Below are positions 3,491 to 62,177 of a stretch of DNA of 64,000 nt, in pieces. Positions within the stretch are counted from its first letter, which is position 1; every line of letters begins with the position of its first letter. Position numbers and translations under genes: made by a program. This DNA comes from Deltaproteobacteria bacterium (GTDB lineage Bacteria > UBA10199 > JACPAL01 > JAHFST01): positions 1 to 64,000 of the forward strand of contig JAHFST010000009.1 in assembly GCA_023265625.1 (NCBI GenBank), given 5' to 3'. The notes below the pieces were generated by a model. That model ran no database searches. It was not told the origin of the DNA and saw only the letters and a program-made list of their open reading frames with translations.

Positions 3491-6400
3491 CTACAAATTC
3501 CTCTTCCTCATTGCCCAAAACAAAGTCGCCGGGGTCATCATCAGCAGGAACGGGATCACGTCTTCAGGACGGCCGGAGCCATCCATCCGGCAGGCGCAAC
3601 CGCCGCCACCCGATGCCCCGGGTGCCGCCGAACCGGCCGGGCTAATGGCCAGGTCACGATCACAGGCATCCCCCATCCCATCGCCATCCGTATCCTCTTG
3701 GCCGGGATTGGCCACCACGGGGCAGTTGTCGGTGTTATCCGGCAATGAATCGCCGTCCATGTCGTCCTGGCACACGTCGCCGACCCCATCGCCATCCGTA
3801 TCCAACTGAATCTGCTCCGGGGTAATATCAGGCGTACTAGGCCCATTGGACACAATCGGGCAATTGTCTCCCACCCCCTCGCTGGCGGCCGCGCAGATGG
3901 CCACACCGGCGCTATCGGCCACACTGCGTCCGCAATCGCAGATCCCATCGTGATCGGAATCAGGCTTCGTCGGGGACTGCACCGGGTAGAGCGGGCCATT
4001 GACCTCGACAAAATCGGAGCAGCCGTCGTCATCCGTATCCACCTTATTGGGATCGGTCCCTAAGACCTTCTCAATATTGTCCGGAATCCCGTCGCCGTCG
4101 GTGTCAATGATGGAACCACTTCCGCTGGCTTCACACTCGTCACCGACCCCATCGCCATCCGCATCCTTCTGATCCGGATTGCTGATGAAGGCACAATTAT
4201 CCATCTTGCCGGTCGGGCCAAAGCCGCAAACATCGTCAATAGGCGCCTTCTCACTGGGGTTGCAGATGCCATCACCATCCGGATCCGGGTCGGTCACGGT
4301 CACCGTCACTATCTCCGTCTTGGTTATCTCCTTGGTTATCTCCTTGATTGGGAAACAATCATCAAACTTGGATTTCGTGGCATCCAATGGCAAACAATCA
4401 AAGGCATCTTCAACCCCATCGCCATCGGTGTCCGATTTATTGGGATCCAGTCCTAAGTGCCCCTCCAGGTCATCACTGATGCCGTCTCCATCGCTATCCT
4501 TCACCTTCACCAGGGCGTCTTCCGGATCGCAGGCCGCGTCCACCTTATTTAGATTCAGGTCTTGGTTCACCTTTTCTTGGACATTACCGGCCCCATCCAC
4601 ACACTGGCTCTCGGGACAGCCCTGATTGGTGACAAGACCGGATACCAATGGGCATTTATCCATACTGTCGTCGATGCCATCATGATCCTGATCCGCATTG
4701 ACGCTTGGCGCCGGACACCCGTTCTGGGCCGGGTCTTGGTCATTGGGCGGACCAAACTGGGTGGGACATTTATCATCGGCGTCCACAATCCCATCCTTAT
4801 CTTGGTCGTCACAAACATCCCCAATCCCATTGGCATTTAAATCCACCTGGTCGGCATTGACCGCGGTCGGGCAATTGTCCGCCACATCCACGTCATGATC
4901 GGCAACGCCATCGTTGTCATCATCGGGGTCACAGACATTGCCTAGACCGTCTTTGTCGGTATCAAGTTGGTCAGAATTTGCAATCTGGGCGCAGTTGTCC
5001 TGGTCGTCATTCACGCCATCGTCATCAGAATCAGCAGTCGCAATGACAACAACATCATCCTGAGGATCGCACGCCGCATCAACCTGATTATTGTTTTTAT
5101 CAACCCCGGTCTTCAACTGCGCCTTCTCCTGCGCATCCGCACAATACTTGTCTGCAGGACAACCAAATATCGTCCCTGACACCTGCGGACACTGGTCCAC
5201 ACTGTCGATAATCCCATCTCCATCCGCATCCGTGGGAACGACATTTGGCGGTGTCACCACAAACTGTACGGAACAGGACCCGCCGTCACCCTTGCCAAAC
5301 AAGGTATAAACCGTAACAATCACCGGTTTCACGGTCAAAGTATCCGTTATTTTTTTTGATTTTTCATTTTCCGGCTTGGTCACATCCCCTTCCAGGAGAT
5401 GGGCCTCGGTCGCAAAGGAGACGTCCCAAGCCAAGATAGTCTCGTCCGGCGTCGCACCGACCTTCCCCGTCAATGAACACGAGGGAGGCGGAGGCAACAC
5501 CACCGGTCCATCCGGCACCACCGAGATATCAATGGTGCAACTGTTCCCGGCTAAGCTAATCGCGACCAATTTATAATTTGTTTTTCCCACCGGTTCTACG
5601 GAAAGCGACTCGATCCCATTCACCTTCTGTCCGTTGACCATGACCGTCTCGGCATTCTGCGTCGTCCAAGAGAGCGTGTAGGTCTTGTCGTCCACATTCT
5701 TTTCCGCCTTGAATTCATCACAACTCAACGCGGGCACCTTCTCCTTGGCGGGGACAAAAACTTGCTGAGGTGACGGGCAATCGTTGTCAAATGGGTCTTT
5801 GGCGGTCAAGGTGTAGGTGGTGGGCTCGACGGCGGGGAGATTCACAGTTGCTGCCTTGTCAGTGTAAAGTTGTTCCTCAATACCATTAACGGTTTTCGTC
5901 AAATTCACTGTCTTGGCATCGTAGGTGGTCCAAGCCAGCAGCACTCCATTTAGAGTGGGCGTCCACAGCAGCTCGCAGGTGATGTGCGGGCAACCATTCT
6001 TGGCAGGATCCTGATCCGCGTAACCTTTTTTATTGGGGCAGGCATCCTGATCCACCGTAACACCGTCTCCATCGGGATCATCACAAACATCCCCCACTCC
6101 ATTGGCATCCGTATCTTTTTGGTCGGCATTGGCCTTGAGCGGGCAATTGTCCTGGCCATCGAGGACGCCATCACTGTCATCATCAGGATCACAGGCATCC
6201 CCCATCCCATTGCCATTGGTGTCCTTCTGATCGGGGTTCGGAACCTGGAGACAATTGTCCTGCGCGCTCCCATCGGGATTGGCATTCAAAACCCCATCCC
6301 CGTCGATATCGTTGTCACAAGCATCTCCTAGTCCATCCTTGTCGGTGTCGGTTTGATCCGCATTCGCAATCAGAACGCAGTTGTCCGCGGCATCGTTCAC

Positions 6401-7813
6401 CTTATCCCCATCGGTATCCACCACAACCACCACACCATCCTGAGGATCACAGGCCGCATCAACCTTATCATTGTCCTGATCAATCCCGGTCTTCAGTTGC
6501 GCCTTGCCTTGGTTATCCGCACAGTACTGATCCGCAGGGCACCCAAATACAGCCGCACTCCCTGCCACCTTGGGGCACTGATCCACATCATTCTTCACAC
6601 CGTCATTGTCGTCATCCGTGCTCACCTCATCCACCGGACAGCCGTTCTTTCCCGCTCGAGTTATATTCTTCGGACCGCGCTGTGTCGGGCAATCGTCGTT
6701 CTTATCCGCAATCCCATCCCCATCCGCGTCTGGACAACCAGATATTGGCCCTGCTTCCTTCGGACACTGATCCACATTGTCGTTGACTCCGTCATTATCA
6801 TTATCCGAATCGCACACATCCCCAAGCCCATCTTTATCCGTATCTAACTGGTCAACATTCGCCCTCTCAGGACAATTATCCACTGGCTTCCCAATACCAG
6901 TCGATAGCGACTCAATCGCTACTTTCTCCTCCGCCGTCGGGTTGCTGATCCCAAAAAAACCATCCCCATCAACATCGTACTTCTCCTTGATCCCCTCAAA
7001 CAACTTCTTGAAGAAATCCGACCAATCTATATCCGTGCTCGTCTTGACCACCTCCACAACCACATTCTTAAACAAACACCCTTCCGCCTTATCCCCAACC
7101 TTGCACGGACTCGGACCATCCTTCGTCAAATCCACAATATCCTGCGTCACTGACTCTCCCAACAAATCCTTCCCATTCTCATCGCAAATCGCCTTTGACT
7201 TATCATTCTTCACCCGGATCTTCACATTCGTAATCTGGGGGACACTCGCCAATCCACCGCCAATCATAAACGCACACGCCGGAACATCCTTCCCTGACCC
7301 GTCCTTCACCGTCTCAGGAAACAAATCGGCCGTCGCATCAATCACTACCCCCAATCCCACCGGGTCATACCCATACCCAATCCCGCTCAAGAAAAATCCC
7401 GGGTTCCCTTGCTTCTTAATCCCCTGCACATGCAACGGACTCTTTAACTGAATCTCATGCTTCGGATTCTCATCCCACTCCGCCTGCTTGATCGCAAAAA
7501 AAATAATATCCTGACAATAATCCCCACTGTTAAATCCCAAGGTCTCGTTCTCAATCCGGTCCCGCAAGGTCCCTGTCCCAGCATCCGCAAATGATCGAAT
7601 ATCGCACAGGTCACTGGTCACCCCGTCCTTCGCCAGTTGGCAGTTCATGTATTGCCCCTTGTCCCCGGCATTCGGAAACCATACCAATCCATTCGTCTCA
7701 TTATAAGCACACCACTTCTGCAATGGTGGCTTCTTCGGAGTCGACCAGGCTTGGGGGCTCACTGAACACAAGAGAGTCACCAGTGAAGCCACCAGAAATG
7801 TTTTTGATTTCAT
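3491..7813 (-). CDS. Thrombospondin type 3 repeat, calcium-binding surface protein with MYXO-CTERM-like tag (1440 aa)
   Basis: A signal peptide occupies residues 1-24 ([24 protein letters not shown]). Residues 25-270 include a GTLRDRI segment as in secreted beta-helix proteins. Two blocks of Asp-rich TSP3 repeats ([12 protein letters not shown] type, which bind Ca2+) span about 284-608 and 861-1395, separated by three Ig-like modules at about 609-860. Many paired cysteines suggest export and disulfides. The C-terminus has [11 protein letters not shown] near 1405, a hydrophobic stretch and a final RKRNL, the architecture of MYXO-CTERM sorting tags processed by myxosortases. No sorting protease is in the window. 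AGAGGA lies eight bases before the ATG. A role in surface structure or adhesion is inferred. Confidence 0.88.
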
Positions 7814-18452: not shown

Positions 18453-20597
18453 TTAACCCTCAGCCCGGCTGAACTGAATTTTTCGCGTGGCCTCAGTCTC
18501 GCGGGAGCGGCAATCCTTGAGGAAGGCGGTGGCGGCGGTGACTAGTTCGGTGGCATCGGCCTCCGCGACCGTGCCCTGCAGGGTCTTGCGGCGACGGGCC
18601 TGGAAGTCGCGGTGGAAGCCGACCCATTCGGGAAAAATTCCGGTGCGGACGAAGTGATTTTCAAACTCGTGGGTGGATTCGCGGTCATTCAAGGTCTCGA
18701 TCATGCGGTGAAACAACAAGGTATTGGCCGCGGCGACCACCGCCTCATAGGCCTTGTAGGCCGCCGAGGCGAAGTCTTCATGGGTGAGCAAGGCATCGGC
18801 CTGCTGCAACAGGGCCTCGGCCTGGGAGAGCTCCGGGACCACCGCCGAAACAGCCGCCCCCGCGCACTCCCCAATCACGCCCTTCTGCAAGCCAAACTCC
18901 GCCTTGTCACCCCAATCAGTGTAAAAAGAGGGATCCTCATCGTAGCTAGGCACCTGGAGCAGCTTGCCTAGCAGGGCCGTCACCTGTTCCTTGGACTGGG
19001 TGGCGTAGTAGTTGTTGAATGTTGGTAGGGGTTCAAAATTTTGAACCCCTACAAGGCCTACCTGTTCAACATAATTTTTCACCAAACACACCACCGCCTC
19101 CGGGATATTCTTGGAAGGAATCTGCGCAATCGGTTCGGCGATCTTGCTCTCGCGGCCAAAATCCCCGCCCAGCATCAGCTGAAACGCCGGGGCCGTGTGC
19201 CCGTCCTTGGGGAAGGCCCCGCCGTAGAAACCGATGTTGGCAATATGATGCTGACCGCAGGAGTTGGGGCAACCACTGATCTTGATGCGGAGATCCTTGG
19301 CCACCTGGCTGATCGCACCATTTTCTTTAAAAAGCCGTTCTTCAATCACCTTGGCCAAGGGCCTCGACCCGGCAATCCCCAGTCGGCAGGTATCCGTGCC
19401 GGGGCAGGCCGTCACGTCATAGATGGTCTGGGCCTGATCCAACACCAGATCCAATCCTTTTAAGCCTTGATAGAAGGCCGGCAGGTCTGATTGCCGCACC
19501 CAGCGTACCAATAAATTTTGATGAACCATCGTCCGACATTCGCCGCCGGCATAACTCCGAAGCAACTTGGCCAAGCCATGCATCTGCGGCGGCAGGATGT
19601 CGCCTAGCCGGAGGCGGAGCTCGACCATGGAAAAACCGGGTTGTTTTTGGGGGATGACGTTGGTTTGTTGCCAGGAGAGGAATTCGGGGGTGTCGAGTGA
19701 GGGCGCAGCAAGCGGCGCCCCTACAATAACCGGGATACCCTCATAATCCTTTAAATGATTCAGATAATCATTCCATTCGGGATCTACCGTCAACACCTTG
19801 CGTTCGTCCGCCACCGCCTTTTGAAAATCCTCAAATCCCATCTTCTCAATCAAAAACTTCATCCGGGCCTTCATCCGCACCTTGCGCTCCCCAAACCGGT
19901 CAAAGACCCGCAGGATCGCCTCGCCCAACGGGATGACCTCCGACTCGGGGAGAAAATCATACAGGAGCTTGGCCATCCGCGGACTCGACCCCAGACCGCC
20001 GCCCACGCGCACCTCAAAGCCGCGCTGGCCATTCTTAATCCGGGCAATCAGACCCATGTCATGGATGTCCGGCAGGGCCGTCATCACGCCACCGCCGTCA
20101 AAAGCCACCTTAAATTTGCGCCCGAGATTTTGACAAATAGGATTGCGCAACATGTGGTCGGTAAAGGCCTGCGCATGCGGCGACACATCAAAGGCCTCCT
20201 GCGGGTCCACCCCGGCACTGGGAGAGGCCGTCACATTTCGCACCGTATTGCCGCAGGCCTCCCGCGTGGTCACACCCACCGCGGCCAACCGGGTCATCAG
20301 GTAGGGGACCTTGGTTAATGGCACATAATGGATCTGAAAATCCTGCCGCGTCGTAATATGGGCCACACCATGCCCCACCTCAACCGCCAGGTCGGCAACA
20401 CAATCAAGCTGATCCGCCGTCAGGCGCCCAAAGGGGATCTTGATCCGCACCATCTGCACCCCATCCTGCCGCTGGCCATAGATGCCGTGCTGCAGACGGA
20501 AGCGTTGAAACTTCTCCGGGGGGATCTCCATGGCCAGGAACTTCCCGACCATTTTGTCAAATTCTTCGATCTCTTGTTTGAGTTCTGGGGTTGGCAT
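18453..20597 (-). CDS. Siroheme [4Fe-4S] sulfite (or nitrite) reductase with C-terminal helical domain
   Basis: This reductase catalyses six-electron reduction of sulfite to sulfide (or nitrite to ammonia). Cluster and siroheme ligands are present: TACPGTDTC near residue 400 and GCPNSCGQHH near 443. GRKFKVAFDGG and TACPGTDTC favour sulfite. The last ~150 residues form an extra helical, HEPN-like domain. ATG 20597 is preferred because AAAGG lies seven bases upstream, giving 714 aa. Two palindromic repeats are translated in frame, at residues ~291-300 and ~515-524. The 3' end is duplicated beyond the toxin-antitoxin module. A rhodanese-E1 gene is divergent, so a sulfur-assimilation role fits. 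Confidence 0.85.
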   Translation of the reverse strand: MPTPELKQEIEEFDKMVGKFLAMEIPPEKFQRFRLQHGIYGQRQDGVQMVRIKIPFGRLTADQLDCVADLAVEVGHGVAHITTRQDFQIHYVPLTKVPYLMTRLAAVGVTTREACGNTVRNVTASPSAGVDPQEAFDVSPHAQAFTDHMLRNPICQNLGRKFKVAFDGGGVMTALPDIHDMGLIARIKNGQRGFEVRVGGGLGSSPRMAKLLYDFLPESEVIPLGEAILRVFDRFGERKVRMKARMKFLIEKMGFEDFQKAVADERKVLTVDPEWNDYLNHLKDYEGIPVIVGAPLAAPSLDTPEFLSWQQTNVIPQKQPGFSMVELRLRLGDILPPQMHGLAKLLRSYAGGECRTMVHQNLLVRWVRQSDLPAFYQGLKGLDLVLDQAQTIYDVTACPGTDTCRLGIAGSRPLAKVIEERLFKENGAISQVAKDLRIKISGCPNSCGQHHIANIGFYGGAFPKDGHTAPAFQLMLGGDFGRESKIAEPIAQIPSKNIPEAVVCLVKNYVEQVGLVGVQNFEPLPTFNNYYATQSKEQVTALLGKLLQVPSYDEDPSFYTDWGDKAEFGLQKGVIGECAGAAVSAVVPELSQAEALLQQADALLTHEDFASAAYKAYEAVVAAANTLLFHRMIETLNDRESTHEFENHFVRTGIFPEWVGFHRDFQARRRKTLQGTVAEADATELVTAATAFLKDCRSRETEATRKIQFSRAEG
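18457..18514 (-). repeat. Direct repeat copy B: functional 3' end of the sulfite reductase gene
   Basis: This is the last 19 codons of the reductase, repeated 671 bp away at 17786-17843 with four mismatches, none changing a shared amino acid. The two copies bracket exactly the toxin-antitoxin module. Confidence 0.85.
19025..19052. repeat. REP palindrome, TTCAAAATTTTGAA core, in frame inside sulfite reductase
   Basis: A perfect 28-bp palindrome with GTAGGGG and CCCCTAC feet. It is identical to copies at 52445 and 56798. On the minus strand it is translated as VGVQNFEPL without breaking the gene. Confidence 0.97.
19697..19724. repeat. REP palindrome, diverged, in frame inside sulfite reductase
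   Basis: A 28-bp imperfect palindrome. Minus-strand sense is GTAGGGGCGC, a short loop, then GCGCCCTCAC. It is translated as VGAPLAAPS in the same codon phase as the 19025 copy (GTA GGG first). Confidence 0.75.
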
Positions 20598-20657
20598 GAG
20601 ATACCTTTTCATCTAACCCGTGGGGGTTGTCAAGACCTCCACTGGACCTCTCCCTGT

Positions 20658-20746
20658 CCCTCTCCTTTGTAAGGAGAGGGGACACTTACTCCCCCTCCTT
20701 ACAAAGGAGGGGGTTGGGGGAGGTCTCCCCCTTTGAAAAAGGGGGA
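20658..20746. repeat. Three adjacent perfect hairpins in a divergent promoter region
   Basis: Stems are CCCTCTCCTT (20658-20667) with its complement at 20671-20680, CCCCCTCCTT (20691-20700) with 20704-20713, and TCCCCCTTT (20726-20734) with 20738-20746, each with a 3-base loop. They fill the gap between the sulfite reductase and rhodanese-E1 genes. The sequence is of a repeat type distinct from the GTAGGGG family. Promoters of both genes must overlap or flank it. Confidence 0.85.
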
Positions 20747-21959: not shown

Positions 21960-21987
21960 GTAGGGGCGTATTGCAATACACCCTTAC
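21960..21987. repeat. REP palindrome, CGTATTGCAATACG core, decayed right arm
   Basis: GTAGGGGCGTATTGCAATAC is followed by ACCCTTAC, so the right foot has mutated from CGCCCCTAC. It lies six bases after the rhodanese-E1 stop and upstream of the peroxiredoxin Shine-Dalgarno. Confidence 0.9.
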
Positions 21988-22740: not shown

Positions 22741-22813
22741 GTAGGGGCAGACCCATGTGTCTGCCCCAATCGTGGCCGCCGAGATGAGGGCGCACACATG
22801 GGTGCGCCCCTAC
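22741..22813. repeat. Bipartite REP element (two hairpins, GTAG...CTAC feet)
   Basis: The left hairpin is GTAGGGGCAGAC-CCATGT-GTCTGCCCC (22741-22767). The right hairpin is GGGCGCAC-ACATGG-GTGCGCCCCTAC (22788-22813). A 20-base spacer separates two opposed units. The right CTAC contains the stop codon of the minus-strand hydrolase gene. Confidence 0.9.
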
Positions 22814-23439
22814 GGTAACCGATCAAATTCCGCGAAATCTTTCGCCCGCAAGGTGGGGTTGTGTTCCTTCTCATAACCAATCGAGGTCACCGGCTTGGTC
22901 CCATAATCATGGCCGGGATAAATCTTGATCGTCGGATCCAACCCGGCCAATTCCCGCAGGCTTTTGAATAAAATTTTTGGGTCTCCGCCCGGGAGATCCG
23001 ACCGGCCGCAATTGCCCTGAAATAGGGTATCACCGGTGATGAGATAACGACCTGAGACGAGGTAACACGTCGAACCCGGGGTATGCCCGGGGGTGTGCAG
23101 GGCCTCGATCTCGAGACCTCCCACTTTAAACATCAATCCGGGTGTGGCCTTCACCAGCCTACCGGCCCCGCGGCGCAAGGGTTGTTCGTCATCCGGGTTG
23201 ATCACCACCTCCGCCCCGGTCTCCGCCACCACCTTATCCACCCCTTCGATATGATCAAAATGATTGTGGGTCAGGAGGATCTTGGTCACGCGATACCCAT
23301 CGGCCTTGGCGATCTTCAATACCCGATCCGCCTCCCAGGCCGGATCGACGTAGGCGCATTCCTTGGTCTCGGGATCGCCGATCAGGTAGTTGAAATTTTG
23401 CATCAGGCCGACTTCGATTTGTTTGATATAGATGGTCAT
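22810..23439 (-). CDS. Metallo-beta-lactamase-fold hydrolase, glyoxalase II/persulfide dioxygenase-like
   Basis: Metal ligands are complete: THNHFDH near residue 58, HTPGHTPGS near 115, GDTLF near 135 and GHDYG near 176. At 209 aa it is a short glyoxalase-II-type member. Its place beside sulfite reductase, rhodanese and peroxiredoxin makes a sulfur-linked thioester or persulfide substrate plausible but unproven. TAG at 22810-22812 comes from the foot of a palindromic repeat. Upstream, another repeat ends seven bases before the ATG, leaving no Shine-Dalgarno. Confidence 0.85.
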   Translation of the reverse strand: MTIYIKQIEVGLMQNFNYLIGDPETKECAYVDPAWEADRVLKIAKADGYRVTKILLTHNHFDHIEGVDKVVAETGAEVVINPDDEQPLRRGAGRLVKATPGLMFKVGGLEIEALHTPGHTPGSTCYLVSGRYLITGDTLFQGNCGRSDLPGGDPKILFKSLRELAGLDPTIKIYPGHDYGTKPVTSIGYEKEHNPTLRAKDFAEFDRLP

Positions 23440-23446
23440 GATTTTT

Positions 23447-23529
23447 GTAGGGGCAGACCCATGTGTCTGCCCTCATTCTGCATACGCGATAACCACCCGG
23501 GCAGGGCGCACACATGGGTGCGCCCCTAC
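23447..23529. repeat. Bipartite REP element, second copy
   Basis: It has the same left hairpin (GTAGGGGCAGACCCATGTGT...) and right hairpin (GGGCGCACACATGGGTGCGC...) as 22741-22813, but the spacer differs in sequence and is longer. The right foot carries the stop codon of the next minus-strand gene. The left foot lies seven bases from the hydrolase start. Confidence 0.9.
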
Positions 23530-24014
23530 AGCCCAATCACCCCATGTAACCGATACCCAAAATAAACCGTCACCAAAATCAGCCCCAGATTGAAGATCTG
23601 TGTCTTCCGAATCTTGCGGGCATAACGTTCCTGGGTCTCAATGTCTCCGGGGATGACGCCAATGGCCATGCGTCCCAATTTGAGGCCTTGGCCAAAACAC
23701 TGCATCGCGGCCACATTAAACACCAACAAGACAAACAAAAACTTCCAACCGAGCGGGGCCAACAACTTGTCAAAATAGCTCGCCCCCAAATTAATCTTGA
23801 GCGCGGTCATCATCATCGCCCCCGTCATGAACGAGAGGCAGAGGCCAAATAAATAGATGGGATGATAATACCGCAGCGACCGGGCCAACACCCGCATGCG
23901 CAACAGGCGATCGTCGATTTCATTTAATGAGGGATAGAGGATAAACGCAAAATAACAACCGGTTCCAAAGGAAACAACCCAGCCCATCAGGTGCAGACTG
24001 CTCAGCAATGTCAC
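23526..24014 (-). CDS. Four-helix integral membrane protein, function unknown
   Basis: The 162 residues form about four membrane helices (LHLMGWVVSFGTGCYFAF, YHPIYLFGLCLSFMTGAMMM, WKFLFVLLVFNVAAMQCFG, IFNLGLILVTVYFGY). It starts at GTG (GTGA overlap with the upstream gene's TGA), so the two membrane proteins are coupled. The TAG stop at 23526-23528 is part of a palindromic repeat foot. Small proteins of this kind occur near DUF4149/CopD-like genes. No redox or metal motif is evident. Confidence 0.75.
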   Translation of the reverse strand: MTLLSSLHLMGWVVSFGTGCYFAFILYPSLNEIDDRLLRMRVLARSLRYYHPIYLFGLCLSFMTGAMMMTALKINLGASYFDKLLAPLGWKFLFVLLVFNVAAMQCFGQGLKLGRMAIGVIPGDIETQERYARKIRKTQIFNLGLILVTVYFGYRLHGVIGL

Positions 24015-24369: not shown

Positions 24370-24840
24370 ATGATCTCTCTCGCGAAATTCCTTTACCTTG
24401 TTTCTCTAACGGCTTGGATTGGTAGTATCGTTTTTTTCTCATTTATCGGGGCGCCCACCCTTTTTAAAAGTCTGTCTCATGCCGACGCCGGCAAAGTGGT
24501 GGGGATGATTTTTCCAAAATACTACAGCCTAGGCATTGTCACCGGATTCGTGGCCCTCGGCACAACGTTGTTTCTAGCCATTCGCGAGGGACAATGGCCC
24601 ATCTTTAAGATCATTCTACTCCTCGTCATGCTCACCTGTGTTATTTACAACCAACTCTCGATCCACCCCCGAGCCCATGCCTTCAAAGAAGAATTGGCCG
24701 CCGCCACCGATCCGGTCGAGCAGGAACACCTGCAAATGGAATTTGACCATGCCCATAAGGTGGCCGTGGTCTATAATGGGATCGTGCTGTTGTTGGGGTT
24801 GTTGCTGTTGTTTTTGACGGCGCGCGGGTTGGTGTTGTAG
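24370..24840 (+). CDS. DUF4149 (TMEM205-like) membrane protein
   Basis: The 156 residues give four membrane helices (FLYLVSLTAWIGSIVFFSFIGAP is the signature opening, with GIVLLLGLLLLFLT at the end) and the His/Arg-containing loop IHPRAHAFKEEL. Members are of unknown function. The TAG stop at 24838-24840 is the TAG of a GTAGGGG repeat, so the final codons abut the repeat directly. It is convergent with cutA. Confidence 0.8.
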   Translation: MISLAKFLYLVSLTAWIGSIVFFSFIGAPTLFKSLSHADAGKVVGMIFPKYYSLGIVTGFVALGTTLFLAIREGQWPIFKIILLLVMLTCVIYNQLSIHPRAHAFKEELAAATDPVEQEHLQMEFDHAHKVAVVYNGIVLLLGLLLLFLTARGLVL

Positions 24841-24864
24841 GGGCGTATTGCAATACGCCCCTAC
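24837..24864. repeat. REP palindrome supplying stop codons to both convergent genes
   Basis: A perfect 28-bp palindrome, GTAGGGG-CGTATTGCAATACG-CCCCTAC. Its left TAG ends the plus-strand DUF4149 gene. Its right CTA, read on the minus strand, ends cutA. Confidence 0.97.
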
Positions 24865-25187
24865 AGGACCCGGGATAACCACCCAAGATAGCCTTTGGAA
24901 CCGGCCACAAACGGAACCACCACAAATTCCGGCACCTCATAGGGATGAATCTCGTGAAGTCGTTTTTCCAGTTTTCCAACGAGACGGCGTTTGGTCTTGA
25001 TCAGCAGCAAAAATTCCCGATCCCGGCAAAGTTTCGTTTTCCAAACATAGTGAGAGATGATCGGCCCCACCTGCTGCGCACAGGCTGCCAGCCTTTCCAG
25101 GACCAGCAACCTACTGATCCGCTCCGCATCACACTTTTTAGCCACCGTGGTCAAGATCAGACAGGCCTGTTTGGCACTCATTGACAT
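24861..25187 (-). CDS. cutA: CutA divalent-cation tolerance protein
   Basis: This small trimeric cytoplasmic protein belongs to the CutA1 family, implicated in copper/divalent metal tolerance. At 108 aa it has the typical core: LTTVAKKCDAERISRLLVLERLAACAQQV, KTKLCRDREFLLLIKTKR and IHPYEVPEFVVVP. An open frame continues upstream but has no family similarity, so ATG 25187 is used. A palindromic repeat ends four bases before that ATG, so no Shine-Dalgarno is present. The stop codon TAG is also provided by a repeat. The gene is therefore bracketed by repeats on both sides. Confidence 0.9.
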   Translation of the reverse strand: MSMSAKQACLILTTVAKKCDAERISRLLVLERLAACAQQVGPIISHYVWKTKLCRDREFLLLIKTKRRLVGKLEKRLHEIHPYEVPEFVVVPFVAGSKGYLGWLSRVL

Positions 25188-25191
25188 AATT

Positions 25192-25219
25192 GTAGGGGTG
25201 TATTGCAATACGCCCCTAC
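25192..25219. repeat. REP palindrome between divergent cutA and mqnE
   Basis: GTAGGGG-TGTATTGCAATACG-CCCCTAC, one mismatch from the perfect palindrome. It fills most of the 51-bp gap between the two starts, so it must overlap the promoters or leaders of both genes. Confidence 0.95.
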
Positions 25220-25238
25220 TTATACTAGACGAACCCAA

Positions 25239-26312
25239 ATGCCAAATCCTCTTTCCGATATCGAGGCCAAGACCGAACGCGGGGAACGTATCACTCCCGA
25301 AGACGGCCTGCGGCTCTTTGCCTCCGATGACCTCGTCACCATCGGCCGGATGGCCAATCAAATCCGGGAACGTAAAAACGGCAACCACGCCTACTACATC
25401 CTCAACCACCACATTGATTACTCCAACATCTGCGTGCTGGCCTGTAAGTTCTGCGCCTTTGCCAAACGGCCGGGTGAAGACGGCGGTTTTTTTCATGACC
25501 AGGATTATTACCTGGAAAAATTGTCGGAAGATTTGCGGGAAGGCATCACCGAGGTGCACATTGTGGGCGGACTGCATCCCACCCTACCCTTCTCCTACTA
25601 CACCGACCTGATTCAAGGGATTAAGCAACTCTCACAACAGATCCATGTGAAGGCCTTCACCGCCGTGGAGATCGATTTCTTCGCCCGGCTCTACAAGATG
25701 CCCGTGACAGAAACCTTGGAACAACTGCGCGCCGCGGGCCTGGATTCAATGCCCGGCGGGGGGGCGGAGATCTTCGCCCCGGAGGTCTACGACCAGATCT
25801 GCAAGGAAAAAATGGGCGGGGAGCGTTGGCTGGAGATCCATCGTATCGCCCATCAGATGAAATTCAAGACCAATGCCACCATGCTGTACGGTCACGTGGA
25901 AAAACCGCATCATCGCATCGACCACATGGAACAACTCCGGCGCCTGCAGGACGAGACGGGTGGGTTTTTATCCTTTATCCCCCTGGCCTTTAATCCGGAA
26001 AATACGGAATTGGCACACCTGGGCTGGACCAGCGGACAGGACGATCTCAAGACCTTGGCCATCTCCCGCATCTACTTGGACAACTTTGACCACATCAAGA
26101 GCTACTGGATCACCTCGGGCCTGGGGATTGCGCAACTGGGGCTCTCGTTTGGCGCCGATGACATCCACGGCACGGTCCGGGAAGAAAACATCACCCACAT
26201 GGCCGGGGCCAAGGTCCCGCAAATCTTGACCGTCCCCGATTTGAAACGCCTCATCGCCGAAGCCGGTCGCGAGGCGCATCAGCGGGATTCGTTGTATAAT
26301 ATTTTGAATTAA
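25239..26312 (+). CDS. mqnE: Aminofutalosine synthase MqnE (radical SAM, menaquinone)
   Basis: It joins 3-[(1-carboxyvinyl)oxy]benzoate to a SAM-derived adenosyl group in the futalosine route to menaquinone. The radical SAM cluster motif is CVLACKFCAF near residue 66. Family blocks follow: VHIVGGLHP, TAVEIDFFA, PGGGAEIF, TNATMLYGH, LQDETGGF, FGADDIHGT. These fit MqnE better than MqnC. ATG 25239 gives 357 aa; an earlier in-frame ATG lies within the palindromic repeat. No other mqn gene is in view. The TAA overlaps the stop of the convergent phosphofructokinase gene. Confidence 0.92.
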   Translation: MPNPLSDIEAKTERGERITPEDGLRLFASDDLVTIGRMANQIRERKNGNHAYYILNHHIDYSNICVLACKFCAFAKRPGEDGGFFHDQDYYLEKLSEDLREGITEVHIVGGLHPTLPFSYYTDLIQGIKQLSQQIHVKAFTAVEIDFFARLYKMPVTETLEQLRAAGLDSMPGGGAEIFAPEVYDQICKEKMGGERWLEIHRIAHQMKFKTNATMLYGHVEKPHHRIDHMEQLRRLQDETGGFLSFIPLAFNPENTELAHLGWTSGQDDLKTLAISRIYLDNFDHIKSYWITSGLGIAQLGLSFGADDIHGTVREENITHMAGAKVPQILTVPDLKRLIAEAGREAHQRDSLYNILN

Positions 26313-52444: not shown

Positions 52445-52472
52445 GTAGGGGTTCAAAATTTTGAACCCCTAC
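52445..52472. repeat. REP palindrome, TTCAAAATTTTGAA core, intergenic
   Basis: Identical over 28 bp to the copies inside sulfite reductase and alaS. Upstream of it GAATTCG occurs twice in direct repeat. It lies in the 210-bp gap before clpB. Confidence 0.97.
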
Positions 52473-52555: not shown

Positions 52556-52583
52556 GTAGGGGCGTATTGCAATACGCCCCTAC
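52556..52583. repeat. REP palindrome providing the degP stop codon
   Basis: A perfect GTAGGGG-CGTATTGCAATACG-CCCCTAC palindrome, identical to 24837-24864. Its right foot contains the degP TAG at 52580-52582 on the minus strand. Confidence 0.97.
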
Positions 52584-54064
52584 TTGGTAAACGCCAAATA
52601 AATACTGGCATCATCGCGCTGGATATACAATCGAACCACACTGCCTTTTTTGATCTTATCCGACGCGCCGGCAAAATCACTCACACTATTGATCACCTCA
52701 TTATTGACCTTGAGCAACACATCCCCCGCCTGGACCCCCACCTGGGCCGCCGCAGAATTAGGATCAACCTCTTCGACCAACACCCCTTGGAGCTTATGCC
52801 CCTGGGCCTCTTCAGGGGTGATGTCGCGGACTCGCAATCCAAGCTCCTCCGAAGATTGACCCATGGCCGCTTCGGCTTTTTTCTGTCCTTCTTCCATCTC
52901 ACCCAGCGTCACCTCAAGGGTCATCGGCTTCCCTTCGCGCAAAAACTCCACCGTGATCTTTTTTCCCACCGGCATGCGCGCCACTAACGTGGGAAGATTG
53001 TGGGACTCGGCAATCTCTTCGCCATTCAACTTACGCACAATATCGCCATTCTTAAATCCCGCCTTGGCCGCGGGACTATCCGGAAACACGCTCGAGATCA
53101 GCGCCCCTTTTTGATCGGGCAAATCAAACGATTTGGCCAACTCCGGAGTAATATCTTGAATCCCCACCCCGAGCCAAGCCCGCGTCACCTTCCCCTTGGA
53201 GATCAATTGCGGCACCAAATCTTTTGCCAAGTTAATCGGAATCGCAAAACCAAGCCCCTGTCCGGAGGCCACAATCGCGGTGTTAATCCCAATCACCTGC
53301 CCTTGCGCATTAAAAAGCGGCCCACCTGAATTGCCCGGATTAATGGACGCATCGGTCTGGAGAAAATCATCATACGGCCCCGCGCCGATCACGCGCCCCT
53401 TGGCGGAGATCACCCCGACGGTTACCGTTGAATCAAGTCCAAATGGATTTCCCACCGCCATGACCCACTCGCCAACCTCTGTCCGGTCTGAGTCCCCAAT
53501 ATCCACATAGGAACCGCTGCCCCCTTCAATCTTGATGACCGCAATGTCCGTCTTGGGATCACTCCCGATCACCTTCGCCTCTTTTTTACGCTTGTCGACG
53601 AACTGCACATGGATTTCGTCCGCCCCTTCAATCACATGATTGTTGGTCAGGATGTATCCATCCGCATTAATGACAAAACCGGAACCAAGGCTTTGCGTGG
53701 GACGTTCCACCGGGGGAGCCATTCCCGGGCCATGAAAAAAATTCTCAAAAAAATCATCAAAGGGATCTTGCTGAGGACCAAAACGCCGTACCGGGCCTTG
53801 CCGCTTCACTTTTTTCTCGGAACTGACGTTCACCACCGACGGCTTCACCTTCTTCGCCAACTCCACAAAGTTTGGCAACGAAGTCGGCGCCAAGGCCGTA
53901 GGTTGAATCGCCGGAACAGGGCTTGCCGCCTCAGGAACCGGGTGTAAATACTCCACGGCCTTTGAAGGATTAATCCAATCATTACGGATAGTTAAAGAGA
54001 TACCCAGGGTGGCCCCCACCAACAAACAAAACCCAATTCCTAGCAAAAGTTTTTTCTTCATCAT
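52580..54064 (-). CDS. DegP/HtrA-type periplasmic serine protease
   Basis: 494 aa. A signal/anchor segment occupies residues ~1-25 (MMKKKLLLGIGFCLLVGATLG). The protease domain has His in LTNNHVIEG, Asp in KTDIAVIKIEG and nucleophile Ser in NPGNSGGPLFN near residue 244. Two PDZ domains follow (~300-390, ~400-490). It degrades and refolds misfolded envelope proteins. The protein ends LAFTK and the stop is supplied by a palindromic repeat. It is divergent from the bamD-like gene. Confidence 0.94.
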   Translation of the reverse strand: MMKKKLLLGIGFCLLVGATLGISLTIRNDWINPSKAVEYLHPVPEAASPVPAIQPTALAPTSLPNFVELAKKVKPSVVNVSSEKKVKRQGPVRRFGPQQDPFDDFFENFFHGPGMAPPVERPTQSLGSGFVINADGYILTNNHVIEGADEIHVQFVDKRKKEAKVIGSDPKTDIAVIKIEGGSGSYVDIGDSDRTEVGEWVMAVGNPFGLDSTVTVGVISAKGRVIGAGPYDDFLQTDASINPGNSGGPLFNAQGQVIGINTAIVASGQGLGFAIPINLAKDLVPQLISKGKVTRAWLGVGIQDITPELAKSFDLPDQKGALISSVFPDSPAAKAGFKNGDIVRKLNGEEIAESHNLPTLVARMPVGKKITVEFLREGKPMTLEVTLGEMEEGQKKAEAAMGQSSEELGLRVRDITPEEAQGHKLQGVLVEEVDPNSAAAQVGVQAGDVLLKVNNEVINSVSDFAGASDKIKKGSVVRLYIQRDDASIYLAFTK

Positions 54065-55643: not shown

Positions 55644-58289
55644 CTACCCCTGCAACGTAATATTTTGATAAATAGACTGCAAGGTCTCCTGCAGCGCGGC
55701 GGTATTGGCGCCCCCCGCCTGGGCCATGTCGGGGCGACCGCCGCCTTTGCCACCGACCTTTTCGGCCAAGGGCTTGATCAGTTCCCCCGCCTTGAATTTC
55801 GTGGTGAGGTCGGGAGAGACTCGGACAATAATCGACACTTTATCCCCCTCCACCGTCCCAACGGCCACAATCCCACTCCCTAGCTTTTGAATGAGACGAT
55901 CCGAGACCTCACGGAGCAGCTTGCCGTCACCGACCGAAGAAAGGGAAGTGAGGACCTTGACTCCCTGAATCTCACGTAATTCTTCGGTATCACCGCCACT
56001 GGACTGTTGCCGTTTGGCGCGATCCAGCGATTTTTCTAAATCCTTGATCTGGGCCAATAATTTTTCAATCCGCTCCAACACCTGGGCCGGCGCCACCTTC
56101 AGGCTCGTGGCCAATTGCGCCATCTGACCTTCCAGCTCTTGCAAACGCCGCAAGGCCTCTTGTCCCGCGATCGCCTCAATTCTCCTTACCCCTGCTGCCA
56201 CGGATGACTCTCCTGTGATTTTAAACAACCCGATTTCCCCGGTCGTACGAACATGGGTCCCGCCACACAGCTCTACCGAATAATCTCCCATTTTGACAAC
56301 CCGAACTTTGTCGCCGTATTTTTCCTCAAAAAAAGCCAACGCCCCGCTTTGAATCGCTTCATCATAAGCCATGCTCTGTTTAGTCACCGCCAGGTTGCCG
56401 AAGACCTGTTGATTGACCTCGTCTTCGATCCGACGCAATTGCTCAGGCGTCACGGATTCAAAGTGGTTAAAATCAAACCGCAACCGATTGGACTCCACCA
56501 GCGAACCCGCCTGGCGCACGTGTTTGCCCAAGGTATTGCGCAACGCCGCATGCATCAGGTGCGTCACCGAATGATGGGCCATCGAGCCCGCCCGATACTC
56601 CGGATCCACCAGGAGACTGACCTCATCCCCCTCCTGCAGCCTGCCCTCCACGAGCTTGGTCCGGTGGACGATCAGGCCTTCCCCGCCCTTTTGGGTGTCC
56701 TCCACCAGGGCACGGGACGATGTCCCTTCGAGGCGCCCGCGATCCCCCACCTGACCGCCGCCCTCCGGATAAAAAGATGTCTTGGCGGTCATTACGAGTA
56801 GGGGTTCAAAATTTTGAACCCCTACCTTGCCTGCAACTATTCTTTCAACACGCTTCCCCCCTTGAACAAGAGCCACAATCGGCGCCTTGACTTCCAACTG
56901 TTCATAACCGGCAAATTCGCAAATCACCTCATCACCCACCAGCTGCCGATACCCACCATCCCGTTTCCCACTCCCCTTCCAGGCCTTACGCCCCCGGGTC
57001 TTCTGGGCCTCCATAGCCGCATCGAAACCCACCATATCAAGGGTCAGGGTCTGTTCGGAGGCAATCACTTCGGTCAAATCGACGGGAAAGCCAAAGGTAT
57101 CATACAATTTAAACACCACGGATCCGGGGAGTATATTTTGTCCCTGTTGCTTGACAGCGTCAATCGCCTCACCAATCAATCCAAGCCCCTTCTCCAAGGT
57201 CTCCAAAAATTTCTCCTCTTCAGAACGAATGACCCGGGTCACTGTCGCGGCCTCACGCACCACCTCGGGATAAACCGCCCCCATCTCTTTCACCACCACC
57301 GCCGCCAGACGGTAGAAAAAAGACTCCGTCTTCCCCAACAACCTGCCATGTCGGATCGCCCGGCGCATGATGCGACGCAACACATAGCCACGCCCCTCAT
57401 TGGAAGGAAGGATCCCGTCGGTGATCAGAAAAACCGTCGCCCGAATGTGATCGGCCAAAACCCTCATGGAAACATCTGCCTCATTCGTTTGACCATATTT
57501 TTTGCCAGTGAGCTTCGCCACTTCCTGGATGATCGGCATAAAAAGATCCGTATCATAGTTGGAGCTGACCCCCTGCAGGACCGCCGCCAGGCGTTCCAAT
57601 CCCATACCGGTATCAATCGAGGGCTTCGGGAGCGGGGTCATCTTTCCGGAGGCATCCCGCTCAAACTGCATGAAGACCAGATTCCAGATCTCCATGTAAC
57701 GACCACAATCGCACTCCACGCTGCACCCTGGCTTCCCACAACCAAAACTGGCGCCGCGGTCATAGTGAATCTCCGAACAAGGCCCGCACGGCCCCGTCTC
57801 CCCCATCGACCAAAAATTATCCTTCTCCCCAAGCCGCAGGATCCGATCGGAAGACACCGCCGCCACCTCCTGCCACAATTTTCCCGCCTCGTCGTCATCC
57901 CGAAAAATGGTGATCCAAAGTCGCTCGCGCGGGATCTGCACCTCCCCGGTCAAAAACTCCCAGGCAAAGGCGATCGCATCCCGCTTGAAGTAATCGCCGA
58001 ACGAGAAATTTCCCAACATCTCAAAAAAAGTATGATGCCGCGGGGTCCGCCCGACATTCTCCAGATCGTTATGCTTTCCAGAAACCCGCATACAGCGCTG
58101 CGAACTGGTGGCCCGACGAACACTAGGGGTTCTCACCCCCGTGAAATAATCCTTGAACGGGACCATGCCGGCATTGGTGAAATAAAGGGTAGGATCCTCC
58201 GCCGGGATCAACGAGGCGGAGGCAATCCGTTTGTGTTGGTGGGATTCAAAAAACTTAAGGAAACGTTCCCGAATTTCTGCGGAGGTCAT
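55644..58289 (-). CDS. alaS: Alanyl-tRNA synthetase carrying a translated REP insertion
   Basis: 881 aa, full class II enzyme: aminoacylation core (FFEMLGNFSFGDYFKR, GETGPCGPCSEIHYD), editing domain with HSVTHLMHAAL and CGGTH, and C-Ala domain ending in GKGGGRPDMAQAGG. A 28-bp palindrome is translated in frame at about residues 488-497 (VGVQNFEPL), just before the editing-domain segment TSFYPEGGGQ, where E. coli has only a short loop. The core motifs are intact, so the enzyme should work. Eight bases separate its ATG from the Shine-Dalgarno-like AGGGTGA. It follows recA. Confidence 0.96.
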   Translation of the reverse strand: MTSAEIRERFLKFFESHQHKRIASASLIPAEDPTLYFTNAGMVPFKDYFTGVRTPSVRRATSSQRCMRVSGKHNDLENVGRTPRHHTFFEMLGNFSFGDYFKRDAIAFAWEFLTGEVQIPRERLWITIFRDDDEAGKLWQEVAAVSSDRILRLGEKDNFWSMGETGPCGPCSEIHYDRGASFGCGKPGCSVECDCGRYMEIWNLVFMQFERDASGKMTPLPKPSIDTGMGLERLAAVLQGVSSNYDTDLFMPIIQEVAKLTGKKYGQTNEADVSMRVLADHIRATVFLITDGILPSNEGRGYVLRRIMRRAIRHGRLLGKTESFFYRLAAVVVKEMGAVYPEVVREAATVTRVIRSEEEKFLETLEKGLGLIGEAIDAVKQQGQNILPGSVVFKLYDTFGFPVDLTEVIASEQTLTLDMVGFDAAMEAQKTRGRKAWKGSGKRDGGYRQLVGDEVICEFAGYEQLEVKAPIVALVQGGKRVERIVAGKVGVQNFEPLLVMTAKTSFYPEGGGQVGDRGRLEGTSSRALVEDTQKGGEGLIVHRTKLVEGRLQEGDEVSLLVDPEYRAGSMAHHSVTHLMHAALRNTLGKHVRQAGSLVESNRLRFDFNHFESVTPEQLRRIEDEVNQQVFGNLAVTKQSMAYDEAIQSGALAFFEEKYGDKVRVVKMGDYSVELCGGTHVRTTGEIGLFKITGESSVAAGVRRIEAIAGQEALRRLQELEGQMAQLATSLKVAPAQVLERIEKLLAQIKDLEKSLDRAKRQQSSGGDTEELREIQGVKVLTSLSSVGDGKLLREVSDRLIQKLGSGIVAVGTVEGDKVSIIVRVSPDLTTKFKAGELIKPLAEKVGGKGGGRPDMAQAGGANTAALQETLQSIYQNITLQG
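56798..56825. repeat. REP palindrome, TTCAAAATTTTGAA core, in frame inside alaS
   Basis: A perfect 28-bp palindrome identical to 19025-19052 and 52445-52472. On the minus strand it is translated as VGVQNFEPL in the same phase as in sulfite reductase. Confidence 0.97.
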
Positions 58290-61290: not shown

Positions 61291-61341
61291 ACTTCCTGTT
61301 TCGACTCAAGGGGGTTCTCAAGTTGCGAGACTGAATGAAAA

Positions 61342-61415
61342 AACGTAAGACGAAGGTTCGATTTTCGGTCGGTACCGTCCGAATTTCGGACGGTCTGACT
61401 TCGTCTTGTCACGTT
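61342..61415. repeat. Compound hairpin at the 5' side of the RAYT gene
   Basis: The inner perfect stem is ACCGTCCGAA (61374-61383) and TTCGGACGGT (61385-61394) with a 1-base spacer. The outer imperfect arms are AACGTAAGACGAAG (61342-61355) and CTTCGTCTTGTCACGTT (61399-61415). It lies 57 bp before the transposase ATG, where REP-type hairpins usually flank such genes. Confidence 0.75.
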
Positions 61416-61472
61416 AACCCCTTGATTTATCGTCCTGAGCCTCTTGGCCCGATATTTGCTCTTGTTTGGGCC

Positions 61473-62177
61473 ATGCCTTCTCTCCCTCGCTCCGCTATCC
61501 TTGAAGACGACTCCTGCTTCCACGTCACTTGGCAATGTCATAACCAAGACTGGCTACTCAAAGAATCCTGGGCCAAACAACTCTACTACAACCTCCTCCT
61601 CCACTACAAAGACCGCTACCGTGTCCAAATCTACTCCTATTGCCTCATGGACAATCATCCCCATCTCTCAGGCCACCTTTCCTCTCTCCGCGACTTCTCC
61701 GACTTCTTCCGCGTCGTCAACGCACGCTTCGCTAGACTCTACAACAAACACGTCAAAAGACGTGGTCAAGTGGTCATGGACCGATTTAAATCCCCCATGA
61801 TCCAAACCGATAAACACCTCTTAGAAGTCATGCGCTACATCGACCTCAATCCTAAACGTGCGGGAAAGGTTCATCATCCCAACCATAACACCTTCTCTTC
61901 CTATCGCTACTACGCCTATGGAGAAAATGACCCCCTCATTACCCCAGCCCCCTCTTATCTCGCACTCGCATCTAACTCAGAACAACGACAGGCCGAATAC
62001 CGATCCCTCATTGAAGATCTTCTCCAAAACGACTGGAAGACTAAACAACCTTTCTCCTCTTCACCCTTCATCGGCAACCCTGATTGGGTCATTCACAAAA
62101 CCAAAATACTCCGTCTCTTCCGTCAACAACGACTCTCCTCCTGGAAACAACGATTCAGAGAACGGTTCGGGACCTAA
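61473..62177 (+). CDS. REP-associated tyrosine transposase (RAYT, Y1_Tnp fold)
   Basis: 234 aa from ATG 61473, where family similarity starts (MPSLPRSAILEDDSCFHVTWQ); longer readings run through the upstream hairpin. A metal-binding HPH triplet occurs in LMDNHPHLSGHL. Then VVNARFARLYNKHVKRRGQV contains candidate catalytic tyrosines. MRYIDLNPKRAGKVHHPNHN and SSYRYYAYGE are family-typical. RAYTs cleave single-stranded REP hairpins and are thought to spread REP/BIME repeats. It is a candidate mobiliser of palindromes here, but the local hairpin does not share the GTAGGGG sequence. Confidence 0.88.
   Translation: MPSLPRSAILEDDSCFHVTWQCHNQDWLLKESWAKQLYYNLLLHYKDRYRVQIYSYCLMDNHPHLSGHLSSLRDFSDFFRVVNARFARLYNKHVKRRGQVVMDRFKSPMIQTDKHLLEVMRYIDLNPKRAGKVHHPNHNTFSSYRYYAYGENDPLITPAPSYLALASNSEQRQAEYRSLIEDLLQNDWKTKQPFSSSPFIGNPDWVIHKTKILRLFRQQRLSSWKQRFRERFGT

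Follow-up and report, generated by a model that had tools for sequence, protein, structure and literature searches.

A symmetric 28-bp GTAG palindrome inside conserved genes and at gene ends of a bacterial genome

The palindrome and its copies

The window analysed here is a stretch of 64,000 nucleotides (C30:1-64000) from a 2.93-Mb bacterial genome assembled in 37 contigs. It contains alaS (55644..58289, minus strand), which encodes an alanine--tRNA ligase (AlaRS) of 881 amino acids (TIGR00344 at 978 bits, over the cut-off), and within this gene, at 56798..56825, lies a perfect 28-bp palindrome, GTAGGGGTTCAAAATTTTGAACCCCTAC, that is read as VGVQNFEPL and forms residues 489-497 of the protein. 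An identical copy at 19025..19052 is read as the same nonapeptide in a 719-aa gene of the sulfite/nitrite reductase family (NIR_SIR; 18453..20612, minus strand), which matches PF01077 and PF03460 over two stretches each and falls below every NCBIfam equivalog cut-off. The third copy (52445..52472) lies between clpB (TIGR03346) and a degP/htrA-family gene (TIGR02037), both over their cut-offs. A sequence-only reading of the window had singled out these three identical palindromes, and we confirmed all of them at these positions, with an expected count of 0 in shuffled windows.

Several related elements, identified by their sequence, share the window. A sister 28-mer, GTAGGGGCGTATTGCAATACGCCCCTAC, is found at 52556..52583 and stops the degP/htrA-family gene (52580-54064, minus strand) with its minus-strand TAG. 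Another sister 28-mer (24837..24864) fills the gap between two convergent ORFs, 24370-24840 (+) and 24861-25577 (-), both of which stop at its TAGs, while a variant with one change, GTAGGGGTGTATTGCAATACGCCCCTAC, and a degenerate version, GTAGGGGCGTATTGCAATACACCCTTAC, lie at 25192..25219 and 21960..21987, respectively. There is also a REPIN, consisting of two inverted GTAG REP hairpins with the ends GTAGGGG...CCCCTAC (22741..22813), whose minus-strand TAG ends the ORF at 22810-23439, and the minus-strand TAG of its second copy (23447..23529) likewise ends the ORF at 23526-24014. The window Y1_Tnp/RAYT-like gene (61335-62177; PF01797 over the cut-off, NCBIfam REP_Tyr_transpos below it) was rejected as the mobiliser, having no full GTAGGGG palindrome nearby and no flanking inverted repeats.

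Two further kinds of repeat were observed in the window. In a 1440-aa ORF (3491-7813), short acidic motifs are encoded by numerous diverged repeats, which we presume may be of the calcium-binding thrombospondin-type-3-like kind. A different palindromic repeat, the CCCTCTCCTTTGTAAGGAGAGGG-type inverted repeat, occurs at 20658-20713 and in the C-terminal part of acs (L135); it is located in or near genes and encodes an NPPFSKGE...PPLKKGGEGGF peptide.

In the whole genome, GTAGGGGTTCAAAATTTTGAACCCCTAC occurs in 47 exact copies, and the count rises to 54, 57 and 58 when up to one, two and three mismatches are allowed; no exact copy was found across the 384 other genomes searched. Comparison of the 47 copies showed that their limits are exactly 28 bp, and there was no excess of flanking direct repeats of 1-9 nt that would mark a target-site duplication. 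Each copy starts with GTAG at the foot of a short stem-loop, for which a strong hairpin is predicted (DNA -11.5 kcal/mol, z -6.1). The element is one hairpin and not two inverted REPs with a spacer, and its GTAG is neither unpaired nor one-ended: it pairs with the complementary CTAC at the 3′ foot, so that GTAG is present on both strands and the two look the same.

The palindrome equals its own reverse complement, so the two strands are also alike in reading. The frame at offset 0, which is used in alaS and the reductase gene and has a codon starting at the first base, is open, whereas the other two are closed by TAG at nucleotides 2-4 (offset 1) and by TGA at nucleotides 20-22 (offset 2). A gene that spans the element can therefore read only VGVQNFEPL, so the earlier observation that both genic copies share one phase and one peptide, with no stop, is true but trivial, and tells us nothing beyond the survival of those copies. 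All ten copies inside conserved genes are in frame. One further exact copy lies in a doubtful ORF and the remaining 36 of the 47 fall outside ORFs; because a simple ORF caller assigns about 94% of the window to coding sequence (about 6% noncoding), extragenic copies are strongly over-represented.

Three contigs from a virus collection also contain the exact 28-mer. They have no other similarity to the genome stretches around the copies with which they were compared, and so supply no empty site. In one of them (L223, at about 520 and 5154) the exact 28-mer is accompanied by an ORF in which a palindrome is translated in frame as the near-identical peptide AGVQDFIAGVQDFEPL.

Copies in conserved proteins and at gene ends

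The ten exact in-frame copies lie in alaS, the sulfite reductase gene, dnaA, acs, gpmI, miaB, rimO, rsmD, mltG and a gene that we take to be YyaL/thioredoxin-domain-like, for which there was no NCBIfam match; dnaA, miaB, rimO, gpmI, acs, rsmD and mltG are each over an NCBIfam cut-off. The sequence-only reading had placed the nonapeptide in a presumed surface loop just ahead of the AlaRS editing domain and had asked whether it is an insertion. On alignment, the peptide was missing in 80/80 AlaRS relatives, which have 7 residues fewer at the site (one of them 6), the nearest named relative being 57% identical (Deltaproteobacteria bacterium RIFCSPLOWO2_02_FULL_50_16), and 8 residues of the peptide region were missing in 4/4 same-order relatives of the sulfite reductase. 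In the AlphaFold model of AlaRS (mean pLDDT 83.6), residues 489-497 are placed in coil between strands 483-485 and 497-501, before the editing domain, with residues 490-493 below 50; this low-confidence coil is consistent with a tolerant loop, as had been proposed.

The other genic copies, measured against relatives within the same order or class, gave a less uniform picture. The net change at the palindrome was about +7 residues in GpmI, +3 in Acs, +3 or +9 in RimO, +2 in MiaB and roughly +6 to +9 in DnaA, where it falls in a variable linker; in MltG the palindrome peptide is a C-terminal extension, and in RsmD and the YyaL-like protein the net change was negative. Simple insertion of a constant length was rejected on these grounds, since among the genic copies the net change varies between +8 residues and negative values. 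Equally long relatives without the palindrome, which the sequence-only reading had named as a refutation, were absent for AlaRS and the reductase but are partly in evidence for some of the other genic copies, such as those in Acs and in RsmD. Either target sequence was lost on arrival or the loops were trimmed afterwards.

Two of the host genes carry further palindrome peptides. In gpmI (L131) and rimO (L133), VGVQNFEPL is accompanied by VGAYCNTPL or VGAYGNTPL, which are encoded by the sister palindrome GTAGGGGCGTATTGCAATACGCCCCTAC and its variant; a REPIN-like VGAPLGAPH...AAPLQ stretch is additionally present in gpmI. Single genes thus seem to have gathered several REP elements.

At gene ends the element supplies stop codons. 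Among ORFs of at least 200 codons that enter the 28-mer, 18 do so at offset 1, where the TAG of GTAG is the stop, 7 at offset 0, reading through the element, and none at offset 2; with ORFs of at least 110 codons the counts at offsets 1, 0 and 2 were 25, 8 and 2, a few of the ORFs in these counts being possibly spurious. All 18 long genes that end in the 28-mer thus use the TAG of its GTAG to stop. Inclusion of other single palindromes gave 21 TAG stops at offset 1 and none at offset 2, and simple REP ends showed no comparably strong bias. The same was seen in another genus (g19, genome G019), in which ORFs entering palindromes did so 19 times at offset 1 and 4 times at offset 2; offset 2 is open in the commonest palindrome core of this genus, yet offset 1 prevails. 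Convergent genes share the two TAGs of one element at L107, L117 and L122, as they do at 24837-24864 of the window.

These stops often coincide with the natural C-terminus of the protein, as was found on alignment with relatives of RsfS (4/4), an aldo-keto reductase (2/2) and an HpnA-like protein (1/1), while in MetF and PgsA the element stop lies within 0-2 residues of the C-terminus of the relatives. The rsfS-gpmI pair is conserved: in relatives, rsfS ends in TAA or TGA with gpmI following a few bases on, whereas in this genome a TAG and the element lie between the two genes. Such landing on natural stops suggests that the GTAG may be shared with the target or derived from it. GTAG REPs are reported often to supply stop codons (PMC3733652).

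Related hairpins and RAYT genes

The relaxed pattern GTAGGGG N6-30 CCCCTAC gave 74 matches in this genome and matches in 25/60 genomes; among the matches listed, most are near-perfect palindromes of 28-29 bp whose inner bases are lineage-specific yet self-complementary. The cores TTCAAAATTTTGAA and CTCAAAATTTTGAG, which occur in one genome, are changed in both arms of the stem. Hairpins of the form GTAGGGGC N11-18 GCCC were matched about 150 times per strand in this genome, some of these being full palindromes counted on both strands, against 10 and 2 matches in the reversed control, and they occur mostly as inverted pairs (REPINs). In another genus, two species differ in the length of the element at one orthologous site, 28 bp against 47 bp, while its GTAGGGG...CCCCTAC ends are identical, and in paralogues the 28-mer and a REPIN alternate at one site. 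A full-text literature search for GTAGGGG returned, among the matches listed, only unrelated sequence matches.

At one further orthologous site in two species (L306 2490 vs L285 10012), a 29-bp palindrome is the same except for its asymmetric centre, which is inverted (GAACCTTGTGTTC vs GAACACAAGGTTC). A genome with one exact palindrome (G024) was too diverged for an empty-site comparison; it carries a decayed palindrome where G042 has one that is almost intact (L337 about 2600 vs L311 4153). As there is only one exact palindrome in G024, decay without renewal could be followed there.

Two RAYTs of this genome (L024 and L025) have REP pairs inside their own ORFs. The RAYT on contig C36 (L025:1114-1755) has an HIHGI (HUH) motif and a PF01797 match over the cut-off, and its TGA stop lies inside a 28-mer copy with one changed base; the REPs inside it have a stem of another type than the TTCAAAA-type 28-mer. 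Both RAYT-like proteins tested were below the NCBIfam REP_Tyr_transpos cut-off. Relatives of the C36 subgroup were found in 14/60 genomes, and in nearly all of the loci fetched from these, GTAGGGG hairpins lay at a shared internal position, often also at the flanks, with a full palindrome in or beside the RAYT at four loci (L194, L205, L216 and L221). A subgroup RAYT was present in 11/20 genomes with at least three palindromes and in 3/40 of the others (Fisher p = 1e-4); in the remaining 9/20 palindrome-rich genomes, which are drafts and in several cases incomplete, none was detected. Y1_Tnp transposases taken together were rejected as a correlate (rho -0.09), and only the C36 subgroup tracks the palindromes.

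Interpretation and comparison with known repeats

The palindrome family is real and well above chance, and its penetration into housekeeping genes is unusual. The REPIN ends, the hairpins of the RAYTs and the 28/47-bp site together make a single-hairpin REP that has GTAGGGG/CCCCTAC ends the best reading of the 28-mer. We consider it probable, by a fair measure, that it is a symmetric GTAG REP/REPIN variant, non-autonomous, most likely moved by a RAYT, and surviving where it does least harm. The 28-mer would derive from a collapsed REPIN, and a RAYT (REP-associated tyrosine transposase, TnpA_REP) belonging to the subgroup found in this genome probably moves, or moved, the hairpin, which offers on both strands the GTAG and CT that published TnpA_REP enzymes use. 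Its arrival would often replace target sequence rather than simply add to it. Copies would then survive between genes, or exactly at a gene end with the TAG of GTAG as the stop, while intragenic copies would persist in the sole open frame, giving VGVQNFEPL where a loop, linker or tail is tolerant. The site comparisons made yielded no empty site that was clean at the nucleotide level, so transposition was not seen.

A second reading, which we regard as a genuine though tentative possibility, is that a distinct REP type has the symmetric 28-mer, a REPIN collapsed to one hairpin, as its own mobile unit. Because one GTAG would be shared with the target, the unit would land precisely on natural TAG stops or replace loop DNA; one of its frames would yield a tolerated peptide and another an immediate stop, with the third also stopping in the version found in this genome.

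It is rather unlikely, in our view, that the family is kept for a function, as a bidirectional transcript 3′-end hairpin or a translation-stop module at gene ends, with the genic copies as tolerated accidents. The predicted strength of the hairpin, the 36 of 47 exact copies outside ORFs in a genome whose window is about 6% noncoding, the many genes stopped by the TAG of GTAG, on both sides of convergent pairs, and the same bias in another genus would all fit such a role, but the element has no T-run, ten copies lie in gene interiors, and the core varies between genera except for the GTAGGGG ends. Moreover, a role acquired after arrival leaves the spread unexplained.

The main rival to RAYT-driven movement is a templated replacement, in which short and often quasi-palindromic DNA is overwritten via template switching or ectopic conversion from other copies with no transposase; either process could be accompanied by a retained function at gene ends. 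We judge this replacement unlikely. The variable net change in the genic copies, from about +8 residues to negative, and the alternation of 28-mer and REPIN in paralogues speak for it, and in a paralogous gene family some palindrome-free members differ at the site by only about one residue. Comparison of G019 with G042, of the same genus, showed most comparable sites to be occupied in both and yielded one near-empty pair (L327 vs L299), in which a stretch of almost equal length, GCGGGGGCCG...CGGCCGCTTGGGG, replaces the palindrome and AGAEQLRPL is encoded in place of VGAARERPL. However, the 'empty' L299 stretch may be a decayed copy, the +7 residues of AlaRS (80/80) and +8 of the sulfite reductase (4/4) resemble added sequence, and the RAYT association is left unexplained. 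Selection of the nonapeptide itself, as a protein module added by the palindrome, is very improbable even though ten conserved proteins share it, since the identity follows from VGVQNFEPL being the only stop-free peptide that the palindrome can encode, the forced frame having led us to reject it as a sign of selection, and since the hosts are unrelated, several sites are linkers, loops or a C-terminal tail, and most copies are non-coding.

Returning to the RAYT-moved REP variant that we favour, the spread of REPs is poorly understood, and the traces left by this family can be read: its ends are exact at 28 bp, the target is not duplicated, GTAG often falls on the natural stop, and codons are lost from genes to a variable extent. 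One bacterium has the repeat in frame in DnaA, AlaRS, acetyl-CoA synthetase, phosphoglycerate mutase, MiaB and RimO, so that what such repeats cost can be measured in well-known enzymes. The sequence-only reading had proposed a selfish palindrome that survives by encoding a tolerated peptide, recalling the Rickettsia palindromic elements (RPE) but apparently different from them in sequence and host type. A selfish-looking family does extend across the genome, but most of its copies (36/47) lie outside genes. RPEs likewise are palindromes translated in frame within genes for conserved proteins; the likeness does not extend to kinship, since RPE-type REPs have CGTC ends and no transposase is known for them (PMC3733652), whereas the 28-mer has GTAG/CTAC ends and 28 bp. 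Unlike a classical transposon or MITE, it has no target-site duplication across the 47 copies.

The REPINs of Bertels and Rainey 2011 (PMC3116915) have their counterpart in the inverted REP pairs of this genome that end in GTAGGGG...CCCCTAC. In that work, deletion between the two REPs of a REPIN leaves a REP singlet with one long palindrome, and singlets are viewed as non-functional remnants, whereas the single-hairpin family found here is large and uniform (47/58 exact). Group 3 TnpA_REP/REPtrons (PMC8266576) also have perfect palindromic REPs preceded by GTAG, with cleavage at CT or CA, of which CCCCTAC contains CT, and published TnpA_REP enzymes require GTAG and cut at CT; the 28-mer differs in that its 12-bp stem includes the GTAG.

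The closest likeness is to the GTAG-tagged REP repeats of Di Nocera et al. 2013 (PMC3733652), beside which the 28-mer stands, contrary to the idea that it resembles nothing known. As described in that paper, these repeats have GTAG at the hairpin foot and a short stem, occur in many mainly intergenic copies (58 copies here, with 36/47 exact ones outside ORFs), lie in frame within known genes, provide TAG stops for flanking ORFs and have RAYT genes nearby; the comparison with its 24 GTAG families covered these general features. Published REP definitions have GTAG unpaired, which counts against a REP reading of the 28-mer, whose GTAG, unlike that of the repeats described there, is paired with CTAC in a fully dyad-symmetric element that has GTAG on both strands. 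GTAG REPs that lie within genes or supply stops have already been published, and what is new is not in-frame palindromes as such, but the symmetric 28-mer, its uniformity and its footprint.
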